Shown here piece after piece: positions 3,943 to 15,374 of a stretch of DNA of 23,698 nucleotides. Source of the stretch: Gemmatimonadota bacterium (GTDB lineage Bacteria > Latescibacterota > UBA2968 > UBA8231); contig PATE01000103.1 in the NCBI GenBank assembly GCA_002712305.1, forward strand, positions 1 through 23,698, written 5' to 3'. The notes under the pieces were generated by a model. The model did not search any database. It saw nothing but the letters and a program-made list of their open reading frames with translations, and was not told the DNA's origin. A program made the position numbers and the translations under genes. Each line of letters begins with the position of its first letter. The stretch's first letter is position 1.

Positions 3943-4422
3943 TTGAGTCGCCTGTTTTCTCTCGTCATCATCCTGTTTGGCACGTGGCTTCTATGGTCGG
4001 GGATCTATCAACCTTTGACCATCGGATTCGGTGTTGGATCGTGCCTTTTCGTCGCTTGGCTCGCGTCGCGAATGGGCATTGGAGACGCCGAGGGTCATCC
4101 GGTCCACCTGATCCCAAAACTGATCCTCTACATTCCGTGGCTCGTGTGGGCCATCGTCAAGGCGAACATCGATGTCGCCCGACGGATTCTGAATCCAAGG
4201 CTTCCGATCAGTCCACGGATGGTCAAGGTGAAAGGAACGCAAAGGGATGACCTGGGACGGGTCATCTACGCCAATTCGATCACCCTGACTCCCGGCACAG
4301 TCACTGTGGACCTTCAAGGCGACGAACTGACCGTCCACGCCCTGACCGCAGAGGCCGAGGCAGACCTGCTGACCGGTGATATGGATGGTCGTGTGACCCG
4401 CCTGCAGGGCACCAAAGGCTGA
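3943..4422 (+). CDS. mrpE: Mrp/Mnh cation:proton antiporter subunit E
   Basis: A 159-aa MnhE-family protein. It has two hydrophobic segments near the N-terminus (LFSLVIILFGTWLLWSG and the following ~22-42), a third at ~57-73 (LIPKLILYIPWLVWAIVKAN), the family segment NIDVARRILNP, and a soluble C-terminal domain with NSITLTPGTVTVDL. The frame stays open far upstream, but TTG 3943 is preferred. It has GGAG seven bases upstream, gives the family's normal length, and puts the first helix at the N-terminus. The upstream extension overlaps the isomerase gene antisense and has no family character. MrpE is an accessory membrane subunit needed for assembly and activity of Mrp complexes. It is the first gene of the ten-gene unit. 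Confidence 0.9.
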   Translation: MSRLFSLVIILFGTWLLWSGIYQPLTIGFGVGSCLFVAWLASRMGIGDAEGHPVHLIPKLILYIPWLVWAIVKANIDVARRILNPRLPISPRMVKVKGTQRDDLGRVIYANSITLTPGTVTVDLQGDELTVHALTAEAEADLLTGDMDGRVTRLQGTKG

Positions 4423-4428
4423 GCCCGC

Positions 4429-4704
4429 GTGTTTGCCGCAACGATGGCCGCCGTGCTGGTGACGATGATCCTCGCTCTTGGGCGAGCCGTACTCGGTCCC
4501 ACGACCTATGACCGGATTCTCGGCGTCAATATGGCGGGCACCAAAACGGTGCTGCTCATCGCCGTCCTCGGTTTCCTCACCGGACGACCTGACTTTCTCG
4601 ATCTGGCACTGATCTACGTCTTCCTCAATTTCATCGGCACCCTGGCCGTGTTGAAGTTCATCGAGCATGGCGATCTTGCGCGCAATGCTGGGGATGGTGA
4701 GTGA
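4429..4704 (+). CDS. mrpF: Mrp/Mnh antiporter subunit F
   Basis: A 91-aa protein of normal MrpF length with three hydrophobic segments: AATMAAVLVTMILALGRAVL, TKTVLLIAVLGFLTG and LDLALIYVFLNFIGTLAVLK. The characteristic GPTTYDRILGVN and FLDLALIYVFLNFIGTLA blocks are present, including the Asp in the first of them that is conserved in the family. It starts at GTG six bases after the mrpE stop; the ribosome site is weak, so coupling to mrpE translation is likely. MrpF is a small membrane subunit of the cation-pathway side of the complex. Confidence 0.88.
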   Translation: MFAATMAAVLVTMILALGRAVLGPTTYDRILGVNMAGTKTVLLIAVLGFLTGRPDFLDLALIYVFLNFIGTLAVLKFIEHGDLARNAGDGE

Positions 4705-5042
4705 TAGCGGGCATGGAGACTATCGATATCGCCAGTTGGGTGGTCCTGATGCTGGGCGCAATCTTCTGTGTGATCGGCGGCATCGGCCTTCACCGCCTCC
4801 CGGACTTCTTCAGCCGCCTCCACGGCGCCGGCATCACCGACACGCTCGGTGCGGGGTTGATTCTCTTCGGCCTGATGCTGCAGGCGGGTCTGACCCTGAT
4901 CACCGTGAAACTCGTCTTCATCCTTGCCATCCTTTGGCTGACGAGCCCGACGTCGACGCATGCGATCGCCAAAGCGGCACGACTGGCCGGTCTCGAGCCG
5001 AAGCTGGACACGAGTGACGATGCGTCGGAGGGTGCCTCCTAA
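4701..5042 (+). CDS. mrpG: Mrp/Mnh antiporter subunit G
   Basis: A 113-aa MnhG/PhaG-family protein with three membrane segments (~9-31, ~40-62 and ~65-83). It shows the family blocks GAIFCVIGGIGLHRLPDFFSRLHGAGITDTLG and LTSPTSTHAIAKAA, which are highly typical of MrpG. The start is GTG 4701, overlapping the mrpF stop as GTGA and preceded by GGGGATG. An in-frame ATG at 4713 is an alternative four codons downstream. The stop TAA overlaps the next ATG (TAATG), consistent with coupled translation through the unit. Confidence 0.88.
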   Translation: MIAGMETIDIASWVVLMLGAIFCVIGGIGLHRLPDFFSRLHGAGITDTLGAGLILFGLMLQAGLTLITVKLVFILAILWLTSPTSTHAIAKAARLAGLEPKLDTSDDASEGAS

Positions 5043-5599
5043 TGCTCGAAATGACCGATCTTGTCGATCTGGCGCTTCTCCTTTTCCTGGCCGTCCTCGC
5101 CATCACGATCGCCAAACAGCGGAATCTTTTTGTCGTCGTCATCGTGATGGGATTCTACAGTCTGGTATCAGCAGCACTCTTCACCGTGCTCGACGCCGTC
5201 GATGTTGCGTTCACGGAAGCGGCCGTCGGTGCCGGCATCTCGACCGTAATCATGCTCGCCACATTGCTGATGGTGGGTACAGAAGAGAAGACGCCGAGCC
5301 AGCCTCGCATCCTGCCTCTACTGGCAGTCGTGGTCACTGGCGCATTCCTCGTCTTTGGAACACTCGACATGCCCCACTACGGAGACCCACAAGCACCAAT
5401 TCATCAGCATGTGGCTCCCCGTTACATCGAAGTATCGGGTGACGAGATAGGGGTTCCGAACATCGTCACCTCGGTCCTGGCCAGTTACAGGGGCTACGAT
5501 ACACTCGGCGAGACCGTGGTCATCTTCACGGCCGGTGTCGCTGTGTTGATGCTGATGGGGCAGGCGCTTCGTTTCCGCCAGAGGGATGGTGACGCATGA
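5042..5599 (+). CDS. MbhD/MbhE-like antiporter subunit (free-standing MrpA C-terminal module)
   Basis: A 185-aa membrane protein. Residues ~1-80 form three helices with the DUF4040/MbhD pattern (AKQRNLFVVVIVMGFYSLVSA, then FTEAAVGAGISTVIMLATLL). Residues ~95-182 resemble MbhE, with PRYIEVSGDEIGVPNIVTSVLASYRGYDTLGETVVIFTAGVAVLMLMG. In canonical Mrp systems this module is the C-terminal part of the long MrpA; here it is a separate gene. AVGAGIS and the Glu before it are hallmarks of the cation-pathway region. The gene overlaps its neighbours by 1 bp (TAATG) and 4 bp (ATGA). It is often annotated as a hydrogenase subunit, but no hydrogenase catalytic genes are present here. Confidence 0.85.
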   Translation: MLEMTDLVDLALLLFLAVLAITIAKQRNLFVVVIVMGFYSLVSAALFTVLDAVDVAFTEAAVGAGISTVIMLATLLMVGTEEKTPSQPRILPLLAVVVTGAFLVFGTLDMPHYGDPQAPIHQHVAPRYIEVSGDEIGVPNIVTSVLASYRGYDTLGETVVIFTAGVAVLMLMGQALRFRQRDGDA

Positions 5600-6018
5600 G
5601 TGACCAACCGATCCTCCGCGTGATCGCCAAGATGTTCATCCCCTTTCTGATGCTCTTCGCCCTGTATGTGCAGTTCCACGGCGACTTCGGGCCAGGCGGT
5701 GGTTTCCAGGCAGGTGTGATCTTCGCAGCAGCTCTCGTTCTGTATGCCCTGATCTTTGGCACCGAGCAGGCCAAGCGGGTCGCCCACCCGCAGGCCCTGC
5801 AGTTGCTGGTCGCCTTCGGCGTTCTGCTCTATGCAGGAACGGGTGTTGCGGGCATTCTGATGGGTGGCAACTTCCTCGACTATGGCGCCCTCGACCACCA
5901 CGATCCGGTGCACGGCCAGCACCTGGGTATTCTTCTGGTCGAGCTCGGCGTGGGCATCACGGTTACGACGGTGATGACGTCGACCTTCTTCATCTTTTCG
6001 GCGCGGAAGAAGCCATGA
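5596..6018 (+). CDS. mrpB: Mrp/Mnh antiporter subunit B
   Basis: A 140-aa MnhB-domain protein with four hydrophobic segments. Typical blocks are FIPFLMLFALYVQFHGDFGPGGGFQAGVI (the GPGGGFQ loop is the family hallmark), GVLLYAGTGVAGILMGGNFLDY and GQHLGILLVELGVGITVTTVMTSTFFIFS. Length and architecture are normal. The start ATG overlaps the previous stop as ATGA. It forms part of the membrane core together with the MbhD/E-like and C subunits. Confidence 0.9.
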   Translation: MSDQPILRVIAKMFIPFLMLFALYVQFHGDFGPGGGFQAGVIFAAALVLYALIFGTEQAKRVAHPQALQLLVAFGVLLYAGTGVAGILMGGNFLDYGALDHHDPVHGQHLGILLVELGVGITVTTVMTSTFFIFSARKKP

Positions 6019-6365
6019 TCCTCCCCGGGCTGATCAACTACTGGGTCGTTGTTTTCCTGATGATGTCAGGATTCTACGTCGTCATGTCGACGGGCAATCT
6101 GGTGAAGAAGATGGTGGGTCTGACCCTGTTTCAGACGTCCGTCTTCATCTTCTACATCACCATGGGCAAGGTCGCAGGAGGCACGGCGCCGATCCTGGCA
6201 GCGCCAGGTACGAGCTATTCCAACCCATTGCCCCATGTCTTGATCCTGACTGCCATCGTCGTCGGCATCGCTACGACTGCCGTGGGCATGGCACTGATCA
6301 TTCGGATCAAGGAAGCGTATGGCACTATAGAGGACGACGAAATCCAGGCGGCGGAGCAGAGCTGA
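6015..6365 (+). CDS. mrpC: Mrp/Mnh antiporter subunit C (NuoK-like)
   Basis: A 116-aa protein with three helices in the NuoK/MrpC pattern: INYWVVVFLMMSGFYVVMS, NLVKKMVGLTLFQTSVFIFYITM and LPHVLILTAIVVGIATTAVGMALIIRI. The segment NPLPHVLILTAIVVG is characteristic of MrpC. The C-terminal tail (KEAYGTIEDDEIQAAEQS) is acidic and soluble. The start ATG overlaps the mrpB stop as ATGA. In complex I and Mrp this subunit sits between the antiporter-like subunits and the rest of the membrane arm. Confidence 0.9.
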   Translation: MILPGLINYWVVVFLMMSGFYVVMSTGNLVKKMVGLTLFQTSVFIFYITMGKVAGGTAPILAAPGTSYSNPLPHVLILTAIVVGIATTAVGMALIIRIKEAYGTIEDDEIQAAEQS

Positions 6366-6366
6366 A

Positions 6367-7857
6367 GTGGAATTGATCAACCAACATCTGCCGATCCTCC
6401 AGATTGTCGTGCCTCTGATCGCGGCACCACTGTGCATCATTCTACGCCGACGACAACTCGTGTGGGTCTTCGCCGTGGTCGTCACCTGGGCGTGCCTGGC
6501 GATGGCGGGTGGCCTGATGCTCCAGGTGCTGTCCCAGGGTCCCATCTCCTATCACCTTGGGGGTTGGGAACCACCTTGGGGAATCGAGTATCGCGTCGAC
6601 GCCGTCAACGCCTTCATCCTCATTCTGGTCTCGCTGATCGGTGCCGTCGTCCTGTTGTATGCCCCAGCGAGCATCGAAGCCGAGCTCCCTGAAGCGCGCG
6701 CAAGTCTGTTCTATACCGCTTATCTACTGTGTTTTACCGGTCTTCTCGGCATGACGATCACGGGAGACGCTTTTAATGTCTTCGTGTTCCTGGAGGTATC
6801 GTCCTTATCGACGTATGCCCTGATTGCCATGGGCACCGACCGGCGCGCCCTGGCCGCGTCCTTCCAGTATCTGATCATGGGCACCATCGGGGCCACATTC
6901 TTCGTCATCGGCATTGGCCTGCTCTATATGATGACGGGCACCCTAAACATGGCAGACATGGCGATTCGCTTGCAGCCCGTGCTGGCAACTCGCACGGTGC
7001 TTGCGGCCTTTGCCTTTTTGACCGTGGGCCTGAGTCTGAAGCTGGCGCTTTTCCCATTGCACCTCTGGCTGCCCAACGCCTACGCCTACGCCCCATCTGT
7101 GGTAACGTCATTTATTGCTGCCACGGCGACGAAGGTCTCCGTCTATGTGTTCCTGCGCTTCTTCTACGGAATCTTCGGACGTGAGTACGCCTTCGACACC
7201 CTGCACTTGGAATATTTCCTCGTTCCGTTGGGTCTGTTGGGTGTTTTCGTCGCCTCTACGGTGGCCGTGTTTCAGTCCAACCTCAAACGACTCCTTGCCT
7301 ATTCGTCCATCGCCCAGGTGGGCTACATGGTCGTTGGAATCGGCCTGGTATCGGTGACAGGTCTGACAGCTACTCTCGTCCACCTGTTCAACCATGCCGT
7401 CATGAAGGGCGCCCTCTTCCTCGCTCTGGGTTGCATCGTCATGCGACTCGGTACGGTCGAACTCGGTGAACTACGTGGCATTGGCAAGCGCATGCCGGTC
7501 ACCATGGCTGCTTTTGTCTTTGGTGGCCTGAGTCTGATTGGTGTCCCGCTGACCGTTGGCTTCATCAGTAAGTGGTATCTCGTGTCAGCCGCTCTCGAGC
7601 GGGGCTGGTGGCCTGTCGCGGTTCTGGTTCTTCTCGGTTCGTTGCTCGCCGTCGCCTACATCTGGAAAGTGGTGGAGACCGCCTATTTCCACGAACCCGA
7701 AGGTAAGACTGCAGACGCGACCGAAGCTCCACTGACACTCCTGCTGCCCACGTGGATCCTGATTGGCGCGACCCTCTACTTCGGTGCGACGGCGACGTTC
7801 ACCGCGGGACTGGCACGTGCAGGTGCTGAGGCGCTGATGGGAGGTCTGGCGCCATGA
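6367..7857 (+). CDS. mrpD: Mrp/Mnh antiporter subunit D (proton-channel subunit 1)
   Basis: A 496-aa proton-conducting transporter of the NuoL/M/N family, with about 14 predicted helices. The charged residues of the proton path are visible: Glu143 in FVFLEVSSLSTYAL, Lys225 in LSLKLALFPLHLWLPNAY, Lys256 in TATKVSVYVFLRFF, His339/His343/Lys347 in LVHLFNHAVMKGALF, and Lys402 in GFISKWYLVSA. The wording of these motifs (GFISKWYL, PLHLWLPNAYAYAPS) is that of genuine MrpD. It starts at GTG one base after the mrpC stop. Length is normal for MrpD. Confidence 0.92.
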   Translation: MELINQHLPILQIVVPLIAAPLCIILRRRQLVWVFAVVVTWACLAMAGGLMLQVLSQGPISYHLGGWEPPWGIEYRVDAVNAFILILVSLIGAVVLLYAPASIEAELPEARASLFYTAYLLCFTGLLGMTITGDAFNVFVFLEVSSLSTYALIAMGTDRRALAASFQYLIMGTIGATFFVIGIGLLYMMTGTLNMADMAIRLQPVLATRTVLAAFAFLTVGLSLKLALFPLHLWLPNAYAYAPSVVTSFIAATATKVSVYVFLRFFYGIFGREYAFDTLHLEYFLVPLGLLGVFVASTVAVFQSNLKRLLAYSSIAQVGYMVVGIGLVSVTGLTATLVHLFNHAVMKGALFLALGCIVMRLGTVELGELRGIGKRMPVTMAAFVFGGLSLIGVPLTVGFISKWYLVSAALERGWWPVAVLVLLGSLLAVAYIWKVVETAYFHEPEGKTADATEAPLTLLLPTWILIGATLYFGATATFTAGLARAGAEALMGGLAP

Positions 7858-9365
7858 CACCGCACACAGCTCTGATCGTCTCGCTGCTATTGCCGATCGC
7901 ATTCGGTCCCATCATCGCTCTGTGTGGATCGAGGCCGAATCTGCGCGATTCCCTCACCGTCGTTGCCGGGCTGCTCACCTTCGGTACGGTGTGCACGCTG
8001 ATACCAGCCGTGCAGGCAGGTGGCGTCGCAGAGCTAAACGTTCTCGAATTCGTGCCCGGGCTGGCCCTCAGCTTCCACGTCGAGCCACTGGGAATGATCT
8101 TCGCCCTTGTCGCCTCGGGGCTGTGGATCGTGACCTCGCTGTATGGCTTCGGTTACATGCGCGGCCACCACGAAATCGATCAGACGCGTTTCTTCTTCTT
8201 CTTTGCCGTCGCCATCACCGCCGCCCTGGGTGTGGCCTACGCGCGCAATCTGCTGACACTGTTCGTGTTCTATGAAGTGCTGACCTTCTCCACGTATCCG
8301 CTGGTCACACACGCTCGCACGACAGATGCTCTGCGGGGTGGACGGGTCTATCTGGGAATCCTCGTCAGCACCTCCGTCTCCTTCCTGTTGCTGGCCGTGA
8401 TCTGGACCTATGTGGCCACAGGCACCCTCGACTTCACGCCTGGTGGTATCCTCGCGGGGAATGTGGAGGGCAACTCCCTTTACGTCCTGTTGGCGCTGTT
8501 CGCTTTTGGGACAGGCAAAGCGGCCTTGATGCCCTTCCACCGCTGGCTGCCAGCAGCCATGGTTGCGCCGACCCCGGTAAGCGCACTGCTGCATGCTGTG
8601 GCGGTCGTGAAGGCTGGTGTCTTCACGGTGCTGAAGATCATCGTCTACATCTTCGGAATCGACCTGTTGGCAGAGACGGGCACCAGTGTCTGGCTGATGT
8701 ACGTGGCAGGCGGCACGGTCGTGATCTCTTCGCTGATTGCGATGACGAAGGACAATCTGAAGGCGCGGCTGGCCTACTCTACGGTGAGCCAGTTGTCCTA
8801 TATCGTACTGGGCGCCGCCCTGGCCACCGACTGGGGTATCATCGGCGGCGGCATGCACATCGTCATGCACGCCTTCGGTAAGATCACTCTCTTCTTCTGC
8901 GCCGGTGCCATCAATGTGGCCCTGCACAAGACCGAGATCAGCGACATGGTCGGCATCGGCAAACAGATGCCCTTCACCATGATCGCGTTCTTCATCGGTG
9001 CTCTCAGCGTCATTGGCGTGCCGCCCCTGGGTGGTTCGTGGAGCAAGTGGTATCTGGCATTGGGTGCCGTCGACGCAGGCCAACTGGTCTTTGTCGCGGT
9101 CCTGATGATCAGTTCGCTGCTCAACATCATGTATCTGATTCCGATTCCAATCCGGGCCTTCTTCCCCGGTGCCTTGCCGAAACCGGCAGCGGCGGGCACA
9201 GCCGCGACCGACCATGGCCACACGGATCACGGGCATGGCGATGGAATCCATGAGGCCCCCATTCTGATGGTTGGCCCCCTGCTGTTCACAGCCTTCGGCT
9301 GTATCGTGCTGTTCTTCTACGCGGAGCCCGTCTTCCGGCTCATCGCGCCGATCGTTGGCCGGTAG
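7854..9365 (+). CDS. Second NuoL/M/N-type antiporter subunit
   Basis: A 503-aa paralogue of the preceding subunit from the same proton-conducting family. Glu141 (FVFYEVLTFSTYPL), Lys222 (TGKAALMPFHRWLPAAM), Lys253 (AVVKAGVFTVLKI) and Lys398 (SWSKWYLALGA) occupy the proton-path positions. It may take the role of the N-terminal NuoL-like part of MrpA. Unusual is a His/Asp-rich loop before the last helix (residues ~453-466, DHGHTDHGHGDGIHEAP), which could bind metal or simply be a flexible linker. The start ATG overlaps the mrpD stop as ATGA. Orthology to a specific Mrp subunit is not settled. Confidence 0.88.
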   Translation: MTPHTALIVSLLLPIAFGPIIALCGSRPNLRDSLTVVAGLLTFGTVCTLIPAVQAGGVAELNVLEFVPGLALSFHVEPLGMIFALVASGLWIVTSLYGFGYMRGHHEIDQTRFFFFFAVAITAALGVAYARNLLTLFVFYEVLTFSTYPLVTHARTTDALRGGRVYLGILVSTSVSFLLLAVIWTYVATGTLDFTPGGILAGNVEGNSLYVLLALFAFGTGKAALMPFHRWLPAAMVAPTPVSALLHAVAVVKAGVFTVLKIIVYIFGIDLLAETGTSVWLMYVAGGTVVISSLIAMTKDNLKARLAYSTVSQLSYIVLGAALATDWGIIGGGMHIVMHAFGKITLFFCAGAINVALHKTEISDMVGIGKQMPFTMIAFFIGALSVIGVPPLGGSWSKWYLALGAVDAGQLVFVAVLMISSLLNIMYLIPIPIRAFFPGALPKPAAAGTAATDHGHTDHGHGDGIHEAPILMVGPLLFTAFGCIVLFFYAEPVFRLIAPIVGR

Positions 9366-9381
9366 ACCTCAGGAGCGACCA

Positions 9382-9663
9382 ATGACTGACGAACAACAGC
9401 AGAAAGACACCCAGACGCCGTGGATCGAACGCGGCTCGAGCCTGAATCTGCTCTATCGACTGCTCATCGTGATTTGCCTGGGTCTGCTGGTTCCTGACGT
9501 GCTCGATATGCTTCACATCGGCTACCACAAACACATCCACTACGGGGCTGAGGGCTGGTTCGCCTTCTATTCGATCTTCGGATTCATCGCCTACTCTCTC
9601 ATCGTAGGCGCCGGGTTCATCTGGCGTCGCGTTGTGATGCGCGACGAGGACTACTATGCCTGA
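9382..9663 (+). CDS. Small two-helix membrane protein of the antiporter cluster
   Basis: A 93-aa protein starting at ATG 9382, with AGGAG six bases upstream; longer in-frame extensions run into the previous gene and lack this site. The N-terminal ~18 residues are polar. Helices lie at ~21-41 and ~57-82, with a His-rich loop between them (HIGYHKHIHYG). The C-terminus is RRVVMRDEDYYA. From memory, similar small proteins with an EGW-FY segment and an R-x-EDYY end accompany NuoL/M/N-type subunits in proteobacterial Mrp-like clusters; this was not checked. Its position between two antiporter subunits, overlapping the next gene by 8 bp, suggests a structural subunit of the complex. Confidence 0.75.
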   Translation: MTDEQQQKDTQTPWIERGSSLNLLYRLLIVICLGLLVPDVLDMLHIGYHKHIHYGAEGWFAFYSIFGFIAYSLIVGAGFIWRRVVMRDEDYYA

Positions 9664-11371
9664 GCACATGCCCCCAGGCACACTGCTCGTCCTCGGCGCT
9701 CTGCTCATACCCGTTTTGCGGGGCCACCTGCGCTCGGCGTGGTTGCTCGCTCTGCCCCTGGTGAGCTTCGCCCATCTGATTGGCCTCGGACACGGGTCCT
9801 ACGGCGAGATCCAGTTGTTCGACTACCATCTGACCCTAGCCCGGATCGACAAACTCAGCCTGGTGTGGGGCTACATTTTCCACCTGGCCGCCTTCCTCTG
9901 TGCGCTGTATTCGCTGCATGTGAAGGATCCGATCCAGCATATGGCGGGTCTGATCTACGCAGGCTCTGCCATTGCCGGAGCCTTTGCGGGTGACCTGATC
10001 ACGCTCTTCGTCTGCTGGGAGTTGACGGCCGTTTCTTCCGTCTTCCTGATCTGGGCCCGTCATACGGACCGCTCCTACAAGGCAGGCCTGCGGTACCTGG
10101 TGATTCAGGTCGGTTCGGGTGTCATCCTGCTCGCAGGTGTATTGATCCACTACGGCGATACGGGGTCACTGGCCTTCGTGCACCTGGGCGATCTTAGCTT
10201 CACGGACAATCTGGGACCGACGCTGATCTTCATTGCCTTTGGCATCAAGTGTGCATTCCCCTTCCTGCACAATTGGCTGCAGGATGCCTACCCGGAAGCC
10301 ACTGCGACGGGCACTGTCTTCCTGTCCGCCTTCACCACGAAGTTGTCGGTCTATGCGCTGGCTCGAGGTTTCGCCGGCACGGACATCCTGATTCCGATCG
10401 GCGCCGTGATGACGGCGTTTCCCGTTTTCTTTGCCGTCATCGAGAATGATCTGCGAAAAGTGCTGGCCTACAGTCTGAACAATCAGCTGGGCTTCATGGT
10501 CGTCGGTGTCGGCGTGGGCACGACGATGGCGATCAATGGCGCTGCCAGTCATGCCTTCGCGCACATCCTCTACAAGGCGCTGTTGTTCATGTCTATGGGG
10601 GCGATCCTTCACCGCGTGGGCACAACGAAGGCCTCCGAACTCGGCATGCTGTATCGGTCGATGCCATGGACGACCTTCTTCTGCATCATCGGCGCCATGT
10701 CGATCTCCGCGTTCCCGTTGTTCAGCGGTTTCGTCACCAAATCCATGACGTTGACGGCTGCCGCGAATGAGGGGTGGAATTTGACATGGTTTGTCCTGCT
10801 CTTCGCCTCGGCCGGTGTGCTTCACCATTCGGGGATCAAGATTCCTTTCTACGGATTCTTCGGTCACCATGACAGTGGCCTTCGCTGCAAAGAAGCACCA
10901 CTGAATATGTTGTTGGCTATGGGCATTACGGCGTTCCTATGCGTGGGCATCGGCGTTTTCCCGGAGCCGCTCTACGGAATCCTGCCCTATCCGGTCGAGT
11001 TCGAGCCGTATACGGCAAGCCACGTGGTGACCCAGCTGCAATTGCTCGTGTTCGCCCTGCTCGCCTTTGCCTTCCTGGCCAGACGCCACTGGGAGACGCC
11101 CGAGTTGCCGTGCACGAACGTGGACACCGACGTGGTCTATCGGAAGCTGATTCCGTCACTGATCCGTGGCTTCAATGGAATCGCGGGCCCCGCCCGGGAC
11201 GCGTTCATCGCAGGCGGCAAGCGCGCAGCGGCCCAGTGCGTCGCATATGCCCATTCTCACCATGGACCCGCCGGTGTATTCGGCCGAACATGGCTGACGA
11301 GCAGCGCCGTTCTCGTGATAGTGGCCCTGCTGTCGGTGTATCTGCTGTTTGCATACCGCAGCGGTTTATAG
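9656..11371 (+). CDS. Third NuoL/M/N-type antiporter subunit with C-terminal extension
   Basis: A 571-aa proton-conducting transporter. It conserves Glu122 (FVCWELTAVSSVFLI), Lys198 (FGIKCAFPFLHNWLQDAYPEA), Lys229 (TTKLSVYALARGF) and Lys362 (FVTKSMTLTAA). It is about 70 residues longer than the other two paralogues. After residue ~480 an amphipathic stretch (VDTDVVYRKLIPSLIRGFNG onward) is followed by a final membrane helix (~545-566). This arrangement recalls the lateral helix and last transmembrane helix of NuoL; the match is by pattern only. It starts 8 bp inside the small membrane protein gene, is the last gene of the unit, and is followed after 22 bp by a strong terminator. Confidence 0.88.
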   Translation: MPEHMPPGTLLVLGALLIPVLRGHLRSAWLLALPLVSFAHLIGLGHGSYGEIQLFDYHLTLARIDKLSLVWGYIFHLAAFLCALYSLHVKDPIQHMAGLIYAGSAIAGAFAGDLITLFVCWELTAVSSVFLIWARHTDRSYKAGLRYLVIQVGSGVILLAGVLIHYGDTGSLAFVHLGDLSFTDNLGPTLIFIAFGIKCAFPFLHNWLQDAYPEATATGTVFLSAFTTKLSVYALARGFAGTDILIPIGAVMTAFPVFFAVIENDLRKVLAYSLNNQLGFMVVGVGVGTTMAINGAASHAFAHILYKALLFMSMGAILHRVGTTKASELGMLYRSMPWTTFFCIIGAMSISAFPLFSGFVTKSMTLTAAANEGWNLTWFVLLFASAGVLHHSGIKIPFYGFFGHHDSGLRCKEAPLNMLLAMGITAFLCVGIGVFPEPLYGILPYPVEFEPYTASHVVTQLQLLVFALLAFAFLARRHWETPELPCTNVDTDVVYRKLIPSLIRGFNGIAGPARDAFIAGGKRAAAQCVAYAHSHHGPAGVFGRTWLTSSAVLVIVALLSVYLLFAYRSGL

Positions 11372-14035: not shown

Positions 14036-14069
14036 CCTCCGTTCGACCTTCACTCACCTATTGGGATCC

Positions 14070-15374
14070 ATGAACCAGTCCTGGCCCTCTCCTTCGACCA
14101 TCTGGCGGAATATCGTCGTCGGTCTTGCTGTCAGTTTTGTCGCCCTGAGCCTGGGCGCGGCCTTTGGCATTCTCTCTGGCCGTGGAGCCACAGTGGGGAT
14201 GATCTCAGCAGGTCTCGTCTCCGTGGTGACCTCCCTGTTCGGAGGTACCCGCGTGCAGTGCTCTGGTCCAACGGCACCAATGAGCGTGATCACGGCCATC
14301 GTGGTAGCGGCCGCCTTCGACACGATCCCGACGCAGCTCCCCGGCACCGATCCAGATCAGTTTGTCAACATGGTGCTGCTGCTGACGGCCGGTATCCTGA
14401 TTCTGATGGGAGTCCTTCGGCTCGGTCGCTTCATCTCCCTGGTCCCGAATGTGGTCATCTCCGGTTTCATGAATGGCATCGCTTTACTGGTCTGGGCGAG
14501 CCAGTGGAGGAAGCTCTTCGGCTCCACAGATGACGCATTCGGAGGTCCCGTCTGGATCAACACGTCCGTCGCCATCGCAACCCTCGTGCTGATCTATCTG
14601 TTTCCACGATTCGTCGCCCGCCTCCCGGAGTGCGTGCATCCGTTGATCCCACCGGCGACGCTCGTGGCCCTCGTGTCGATGACAGTTTTGGCTCAGTGGC
14701 TGCAACTCCCCATTGAGACCACCGACGTCAGCGGTGAGCTGACCAGTTGGGCAGCCCTTGGAGATGTGATCGCCCGCCAGATTCCAACGGACTGGTCCCT
14801 GTCTCTACTGGTTCTTGCTCTGCCTTTCGGATTCCAGTTGGCCGCCCTGTGTTATCTGGACACTCTGCTCACTTCCCTCGTAGTCGATCGAATGACGGGT
14901 GAGGCCACTCGGCAGAATCAGGAGCTGATCGCCCAGGGTGCCGCCAATGGAATCGTGGCTTTCATCGGGGGCATTCCCGGTGCGCAGGCCACGATTCGCT
15001 CGGTGCTTGTCATCAAAGAGGGCGGCACGCTTCGACTCGCCGGCGTCTGTATCGGCTTGTTCGTCCTGGCGGAGATGGTCTTGCTGCAAGACCTGATCGC
15101 CATGATCCCACAAGCCGTGTTTGCGGGAATCCTGTTCAAGGTGGGTTACGACGTGTTCGATCTACCCCCACTGTGGAGCTATCTGCGCCGTTGGGTTGGG
15201 CGCCCGATACAGCCGGGCCAGGTCGGTGTCCAGAATCGCGAGTTTGCTCTGATTCTGGGAACGACGATGGTGACCTTCTTGTGGGACCTGAATGTGGCCG
15301 TCGTCCTGTTCAGCGCAGCGTTCTATCTGATCAACTATTGGCGCAGGGATGATCCAATCAGGGATCTGCGGTAG
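14070..15374 (+). CDS. SulP-family anion transporter lacking a STAS domain
   Basis: A 434-aa membrane protein with about 10-12 hydrophobic segments in the SulP/SLC26 pattern. Characteristic blocks are VQCSGPTAPMSVITA (~62-76), VISGFMNGIALLVW, and RQNQELIAQGAANG followed by GGIPGAQATIRS (300-311). SulP proteins import or exchange sulfate, bicarbonate or dicarboxylates. Most continue into a cytoplasmic STAS domain of ~100-150 residues; this one ends about 10 residues after its last helix (INYWRRDDPIRDLR). The start ATG 14070 has only a weak upstream purine stretch; a TTG at 14061 is possible. The transported ion cannot be told from sequence. Confidence 0.88.
   Translation: MNQSWPSPSTIWRNIVVGLAVSFVALSLGAAFGILSGRGATVGMISAGLVSVVTSLFGGTRVQCSGPTAPMSVITAIVVAAAFDTIPTQLPGTDPDQFVNMVLLLTAGILILMGVLRLGRFISLVPNVVISGFMNGIALLVWASQWRKLFGSTDDAFGGPVWINTSVAIATLVLIYLFPRFVARLPECVHPLIPPATLVALVSMTVLAQWLQLPIETTDVSGELTSWAALGDVIARQIPTDWSLSLLVLALPFGFQLAALCYLDTLLTSLVVDRMTGEATRQNQELIAQGAANGIVAFIGGIPGAQATIRSVLVIKEGGTLRLAGVCIGLFVLAEMVLLQDLIAMIPQAVFAGILFKVGYDVFDLPPLWSYLRRWVGRPIQPGQVGVQNREFALILGTTMVTFLWDLNVAVVLFSAAFYLINYWRRDDPIRDLR

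Follow-up and report, generated by a model that had tools for sequence, protein, structure and literature searches.

A ten-gene group 3 Mrp-type operon with three predicted proton-channel subunits in a Gemmatimonadota genome

Group 3 Mrp antiporters are defined by the absence of mrpA and the presence of mrpD, sometimes in several copies (PMC8415708), and the stand-alone Mrp of Pyrococcus furiosus, organized as mrpEFGBB'CD, includes a B gene homologous to an MbhD-MbhE fusion (PMC8415708). For 'Ca. Nitrospira alkalitolerans', a group 3 Mrp locus has been described in which two NuoM/L-like genes follow mrpD, in an account based on sequence whose accessible part does not discuss a small protein, subunit phylogeny or helix length (PMC7784846). 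In rhizobial complex I, two MrpD-like subunits are found in place of NuoL (PMC9040806). The locus analysed here belongs to a Gemmatimonadota bacterium (assembly GCA_002712305.1, contig PATE01000103.1, positions 1 to 23,698, the whole of this stretch being called the window), in which ten plus-strand genes, overlapping or nearly touching, fill positions 3943-11371 as one tight operon. Its order is mrpE-F-G-X-B-C-D1-D2-s-D3, where X is an MbhD-MbhE fusion, D1, D2 and D3 are predicted proton-channel subunits, and s is a small membrane protein. Judging from sequence, this operon quite probably encodes a stand-alone cation/proton antiporter of the group 3 Mrp type, with its three channel subunits in a single row.

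The operon and its described relatives

All ten genes listed by the original prediction were recovered on the plus strand, in the order and at the coordinates it had given. Nine of them were named by Pfam and NCBIfam (MNHE, MrpF, MrpG, MbhD+MbhE, MnhB, NuoK/MrpC-like, and three Proton_antipo_M proteins, which correspond to the three NuoL/M/N-type subunits it had proposed), s being the exception. As in group 3 Mrp, no full-length mrpA was found, while mrpD and the B, C, E, F and G genes were all present. The absence of mrpA, the E-F-G-[MbhDE]-B-C-D order and the stand-alone organization with no redox module are shared with the P. furiosus group 3 Mrp, which has one channel subunit, whereas the window operon has three in addition to s. 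The group 1 and 2 antiporters, represented by the Bacillus, Anoxybacillus and Dietzia structures, have homologous small subunits and channel folds, but differ in having two channels (A and D), a one-piece MrpA, the order A-G, and no s. In the window, the C-terminal part of MrpA is a separate gene and D2 has no such extension, which agrees with the earlier proposal of a split MrpA: X is its C-terminal piece, and D2 is the N-terminal relative, closest to MrpA-N/NuoL in the tree described below. Among the named proteins in that tree, MbsH and MbsH' of the P. furiosus MBS are closest to D1 and D3, but the MBS possesses a redox arm and two channels.

The motifs of the cation path, including those of the Na+ path of group 1 and 2 Mrp, were largely kept in the alignments. 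The essential residues of Bacillus Mrp have been catalogued (PMC5703873), and the Asp-Arg motif that is the site of the essential Asp32 in Bacillus MrpF was retained in the window MrpF. Likewise, X preserved the TEAAVGAG and RGxDTxGE motifs common to MrpA, with the Glu of the latter lying about one helix turn away from the MrpA Glu.

The operon follows the gene order of MBH and group 3 Mrp and then adds D2-s-D3. This arrangement had been regarded as rearranged and as possibly an unrecognised membrane module, and neither view held. Archaeal MBH shares this order with group 3 Mrp (PMC8415708), and the order of the operon recurs across phyla. Group 3 Mrp with several mrpD genes has also been published (PMC8415708, PMC7784846). 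What was already known comprises the group 3 Mrp kind, the extra mrpD-like genes, the NCBI subunit models and the D2/D3 pair in complex I. A search of species-representative genomes with a D3 profile returned at least 575 coding relatives, the best 80 of which were kept for a survey of gene order, and nearly all of these 80 loci with a long enough contig displayed E-F-G-X-B-C-D1-D2-s-D3, with X and B fused in some. The labels given by hidden Markov models to D1 and D2 were mixed in this survey, which did not affect the gene positions. According to the record titles, the ten-gene order was found in alpha-, beta- and gammaproteobacteria (Pseudomonadota), Planctomycetota, Nitrospira and Gemmatimonadota, so that chance is excluded, and a local rearrangement was rejected, since dozens of loci share the order. 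Thus, as read from genome sequences, the ten-gene operon type is widespread among bacteria. A Nitrospira locus of this survey (L071) has the ten-gene order. Two haloarchaeal plasmids carried nine genes, E-F-G-X-B-C-D1-D2-D3, and no match to s, fused or free, was obtained in haloarchaea.

Two other arrangements were observed. An Aminobacter plasmid, pMET1, harbored a further three-channel Mrp operon, which lacked s (L109:6109-13074); its D2 was related, and both D1 and D3 were very divergent. In a further locus (L149:3578-4101, G037:C29), X was divided between two short genes, which probably resemble MbhD and MbhE, the arrangement seen in archaeal MBH.

Three channel subunits of distinct descent

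A phylogeny of the channel subunits had been suggested as a check of the original prediction. In a maximum-likelihood tree of 76 proteins, whose root was not inferred, D1 grouped with MbhH/MbsH and NuoN (98/96), D2 was the sister of NuoL + MrpA-N + HyfD (99/93), and D3 was the sister of MbsH' (99/86). Once the divergent Aminobacter operon was excluded, D1, D2 and D3 each formed one clade spanning bacteria and haloarchaea. Forcing D1, D2 and D3 into a single clade was rejected by the approximately unbiased (AU) test (delta lnL 172, p-AU 4.5e-7). Because both the tree and this test reject one clade, the three proteins are, by sequence phylogeny, ancient and distinct paralogues, that is, old separate subunits and no recent triplication. 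The annotation models loosely label D1, D2 and D3 all as subunit D, which would suit a lineage-specific triplication of mrpD without ancient identity, but the rejection of the single clade, under the model used, makes such an origin extremely improbable.

The Glu and three Lys of the proton path, which had been attributed to every channel subunit, were found in D1 (E143, K225, K256, K402) and D3 (E122, K198, K229, K362). For D2 (E141, K222, K398), the attribution was slightly loose, because the column of transmembrane helix (TM) 8 is occupied by V252, flanked by H248 and K253, which is the NuoL/MrpA pattern. Across 72 operons (the window and 71 loci), the Glu of TM5, the Lys of TM7 and the Lys of TM12 were nearly invariant in all three subunits, the TM8 Lys was retained in D1 and D3, and D2 displayed the NuoL/MrpA pattern. 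This conservation bears on a sub-case of the three-channel antiporter, in which the complex would be the same but one channel subunit would be structural only, the H+/cation ratio being as in two-channel Mrp. Ion stoichiometry was stated in 2020 to be undetermined for Mrp, MBH and MBS (PMC7684303), so that no rule links the number of channels to protons per cycle, which leaves room for this sub-case, but the essentially invariant residues in D1, D2 and D3 speak against a structural-only subunit and render it rather unlikely.

D3 topology, lateral helix length and proposed mechanism

The AlphaFold2 model of D3 (pLDDT 84, pTM 0.81) contained a 14-TM core, TM15 (454-476), a lateral helix (HL) of 44 residues (493-536) and TM16 (548-570), and D3 is thus modelled with the topology of NuoL. 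Residues 1-546 of the model matched E. coli NuoL with Z 42.0 (525 aligned, 3.7 A), and the match to a resting-state NuoL structure reached residue 569 at 6.8 A. The best Foldseek matches of D3 were MrpA and NuoL, with no choice between the two from Foldseek alone.

It has been described that the length of HL follows the number of channel subunits (PMC7684303, PMC9040806). The distance between the conserved Asp that opens HL and the midpoint of TM16, located by hydropathy, was 34.6 +/- 3.0 residues in MrpA (two channels, n=5), 61-64 in NuoL (three channels, n=7), 66.8 +/- 1.8 in D3 of the ten-gene operon type (n=80, the best 80 of at least 575 relatives), and 91.3 +/- 0.7 in D3 of the so-called green complex I (four channels, n=7, six rhizobial and one from G017, which belongs to the same family as the window genome). 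The steps from MrpA to NuoL (~27 residues) and from Mrp-type D3 to green D3 (~25) each equal one subunit width. The D3 lateral helix matches that of three-pump complex I in length and exceeds that of two-channel MrpA by ~30 residues, and D3 of the ten-gene operon type falls, by this sequence measure, into the three-channel length class. Because D3 combines the NuoL topology with a helix of the three-pump class, the three channels are probably placed in one row within one complex. No description of this helix-length match in such an Mrp, nor of the assignment of D2 to NuoL/MrpA-N and of D3 to MbsH', was found in the open-access literature.

In the proposed mechanism, E, F, G, B and C together with X, the C-terminal part of MrpA, would form the cation-translocating block, which would carry the three proton-translocating subunits in the row X/C - D1 - D2 - D3. 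At the far end, D3 would clamp the row by its lateral helix and TM16, like NuoL in complex I, with s as a small accessory subunit at the D2-D3 end. Entering through the three channels down the proton motive force, protons would drive the export of Na+ (or K+) through the E/F/G/B/C/X block, by analogy with solved Mrp, in which proton entry via the channel subunits is combined with cation export (PMC7419157). With three channels, as many as three protons could be coupled in each cycle, one coupled site more than in two-channel Mrp, possibly giving a stronger and more electrogenic antiporter for low proton motive force or high external Na+. An H+/Na+ ratio differing from that of two-channel Mrp is plausible.

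Several points weigh against this interpretation. The number of channels need not equal the number of protons per cycle, because the P. furiosus Mrp has no MrpA-N and is nevertheless kept. The confidence of the AlphaFold2 model was modest in HL and its linker, falling below 50 at residues 484-496. Selecting the 80 D3 sequences that matched the query best also selects for relatedness, which accounts for part of their uniform length. Two haloarchaeal D3 proteins were longer (93.5), with a low-complexity insert and a poor landmark, and a 691-aa NuoL of genome G028 (L097:11110-13185, G028:C4) gave a distance of 90, its HL being ~27 residues longer than usual at a locus where only L, M and N were seen. 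Because of these two exceptions, the helix length is evidence for one row of three but falls short of proof. In addition, no antiport assay, purification, complex model or other biochemistry of the ten-gene operon type was found in the open-access literature.

The small protein, the D2-s-D3 cassette and the genomic surroundings

The s protein was predicted to contain two membrane helices (18-43 and 64-85; mean pLDDT 72) and ended in the C-terminal signature R-x-E-D-Y-Y. Its assignment to a known family was rejected, as 29 members gave no convincing Pfam or NCBIfam match, and no description of it was found in a literature search limited to open-access text. In the 64 genomes of the window's phylum, s and D3 occurred in exactly the same 33, one copy of each per genome, and adjoined each other wherever both were on one contig. 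This protein also accompanied D2 and D3 in rhizobial complex I, and neither the haloarchaeal operons nor the Aminobacter three-channel operon contained it. The simplest reading is that s would be an accessory subunit of the D2-D3 end.

In plasmids of Phyllobacterium, Sinorhizobium, Rhizobium, Pararhizobium and Ensifer, D2-s-D3 was located between nuoK and nuoM, with no nuoL. This cassette is what the window operon has in common with the rhizobial green complex I, the D2 and D3 of which are ~52% and ~47% identical to those of the window; there, however, it replaces nuoL beside nuoM and nuoN, and the HL of D3 is ~25 residues longer. Those D2 and D3 sequences that belong to complex I branched, in the tree, between the haloarchaeal and the bacterial Mrp copies, which suggests that the cassette moved from Mrp to complex I, a direction to be read with the uninferred root in mind. 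Outside rhizobia, a green-type complex I operon with the order A-B-C-D-H-I-J-K-D2-s-D3-M-N and no nuoL was observed in G017 (G017:C151, L095:1621-13276), E, F and G not being detected in that stretch. In four genomes of one genus of the same class (G031-G034, L151-L155), the whole ten-gene Mrp operon was inserted in the nuo operon between nuoM and nuoN, as J-K-L-M-[E-F-G-X-B-C-D1-D2-s-D3]-N, a placement suggesting that complex I and this Mrp are co-expressed or physically coupled.

These placements, both the cassette within nuo operons that have no nuoL in rhizobia and G017 and the whole operon between nuoM and nuoN in G031-G034, would also suit a different explanation, in which D2-s-D3 would be a two-channel module distinct from Mrp, sharing no more than its transcript and working in complex I, where it would take the place of NuoL or extend it. 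However, the window genome and G031-G034 possess their own nuoL, the HL of Mrp-operon D3 is ~25 residues shorter than the complex I version, and the cassette overlaps tightly with mrpC-D1 in an order conserved across phyla, so that this explanation appears quite improbable.

Starting from the three-channel antiporter, a more extensive proposal can be advanced tentatively, as possible rather than probable: an Mrp with the complex I number of channels in one row, an obligatory s and a higher H+/cation ratio than known Mrp, whose D2-s-D3 end-cap would have been moved whole between Mrp and complex I, the clamp helix being trimmed or extended by one subunit width. The number of proton channels in complex I is hard to change, which is part of why its coupling is debated. 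The Mrp antiporters offer matched natural sets without redox chemistry, with one channel (P. furiosus), two (Bacillus) and three (the ten-gene operon), and H+/Na+ ratios across them would bear directly on whether one proton passes per channel per cycle. A further comparison comes from the four-pump complex I with its copy of this cassette, and s stands as a defined candidate subunit without a name.

The features of the operon are collected in Table 1. The large subunits are already covered by NCBIfam models, and D3 scored 703 bits against PRK12668, above the curated cut-off of 564.

Table 1. Genes of the Mrp-type operon, in window positions
Feature	Position	Strand	Details
mrpE (MNHE, PF01899)	3943..4422	+	159 aa; TTG start as predicted by gene finder; Pfam E=7.4e-35
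mrpF (PF04066)	4429..4704	+	91 aa; Pfam 6e-18; alignment
mrpG (PF03334)	4701..5042	+	113 aa; Pfam 2e-25; exceeds TIGR01300 cut-off
X, MbhD-MbhE fusion	5042..5599	+	PF13244 + PF20501; exceeds NF009159 cut-off
mrpB (MnhB, PF04039)	5596..6018	+	140 aa; Pfam/NCBIfam
mrpC (NuoK-like, PF00420)	6015..6365	+	116 aa; Pfam/NCBIfam
D1, predicted MrpD/MbhH/MbsH-type proton-channel subunit	6367..7857	+	496 aa, 14-TM class; families, tree, residues
D2, predicted NuoL/MrpA-N-type channel subunit without lateral helix	7854..9365	+	503 aa; families, tree, residues
s, small two-helix membrane protein	9382..9663	+	93 aa; no Pfam/NCBIfam family
D3, predicted PRK12668/MbsH'-type channel subunit with TM15, HL and TM16	9656..11371	+	571 aa; NCBIfam, tree, AlphaFold2

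The scanned genes flanking the operon (alginate lyase-amidase, NUDIX, kinase, CBS, nucleoside hydrolase, SulP and others) were all unrelated to it. As the original prediction had noted for electron-transfer and hydrogenase genes, no redox, hydrogenase or nuo genes were found among them; nor was the redox arm of MBH/MBS (MbhJ-N), for which no genome-wide search was made. The assembly comprises 4.77 Mb in 146 contigs, the mrpB of the operon is its single MnhB match, and a canonical nuo cluster with its own nuoL-M-N is located on another contig, C58.

The SulP-family transporter gene lies at 14061-15374, 2.7 kb downstream of the operon. Genes of the bicA type, which encode SulP transporters, neighbour Mrp loci in Nitrospira and cyanobacteria; here, SulP as a conserved neighbour of the operon was rejected, none being present in 56 long related loci. 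At the other end of the window, a single open frame (432-2870) encodes an alginate lyase domain and, after it, an amidase domain, and may represent a fusion. Elsewhere in the window genome (G000:C81, L094:6606-15001), a second, divergent NuoN-/NuoM-like pair was observed with NuoF/NuoG-like genes, and this pair adjoins genes reading as F1 ATP synthase.

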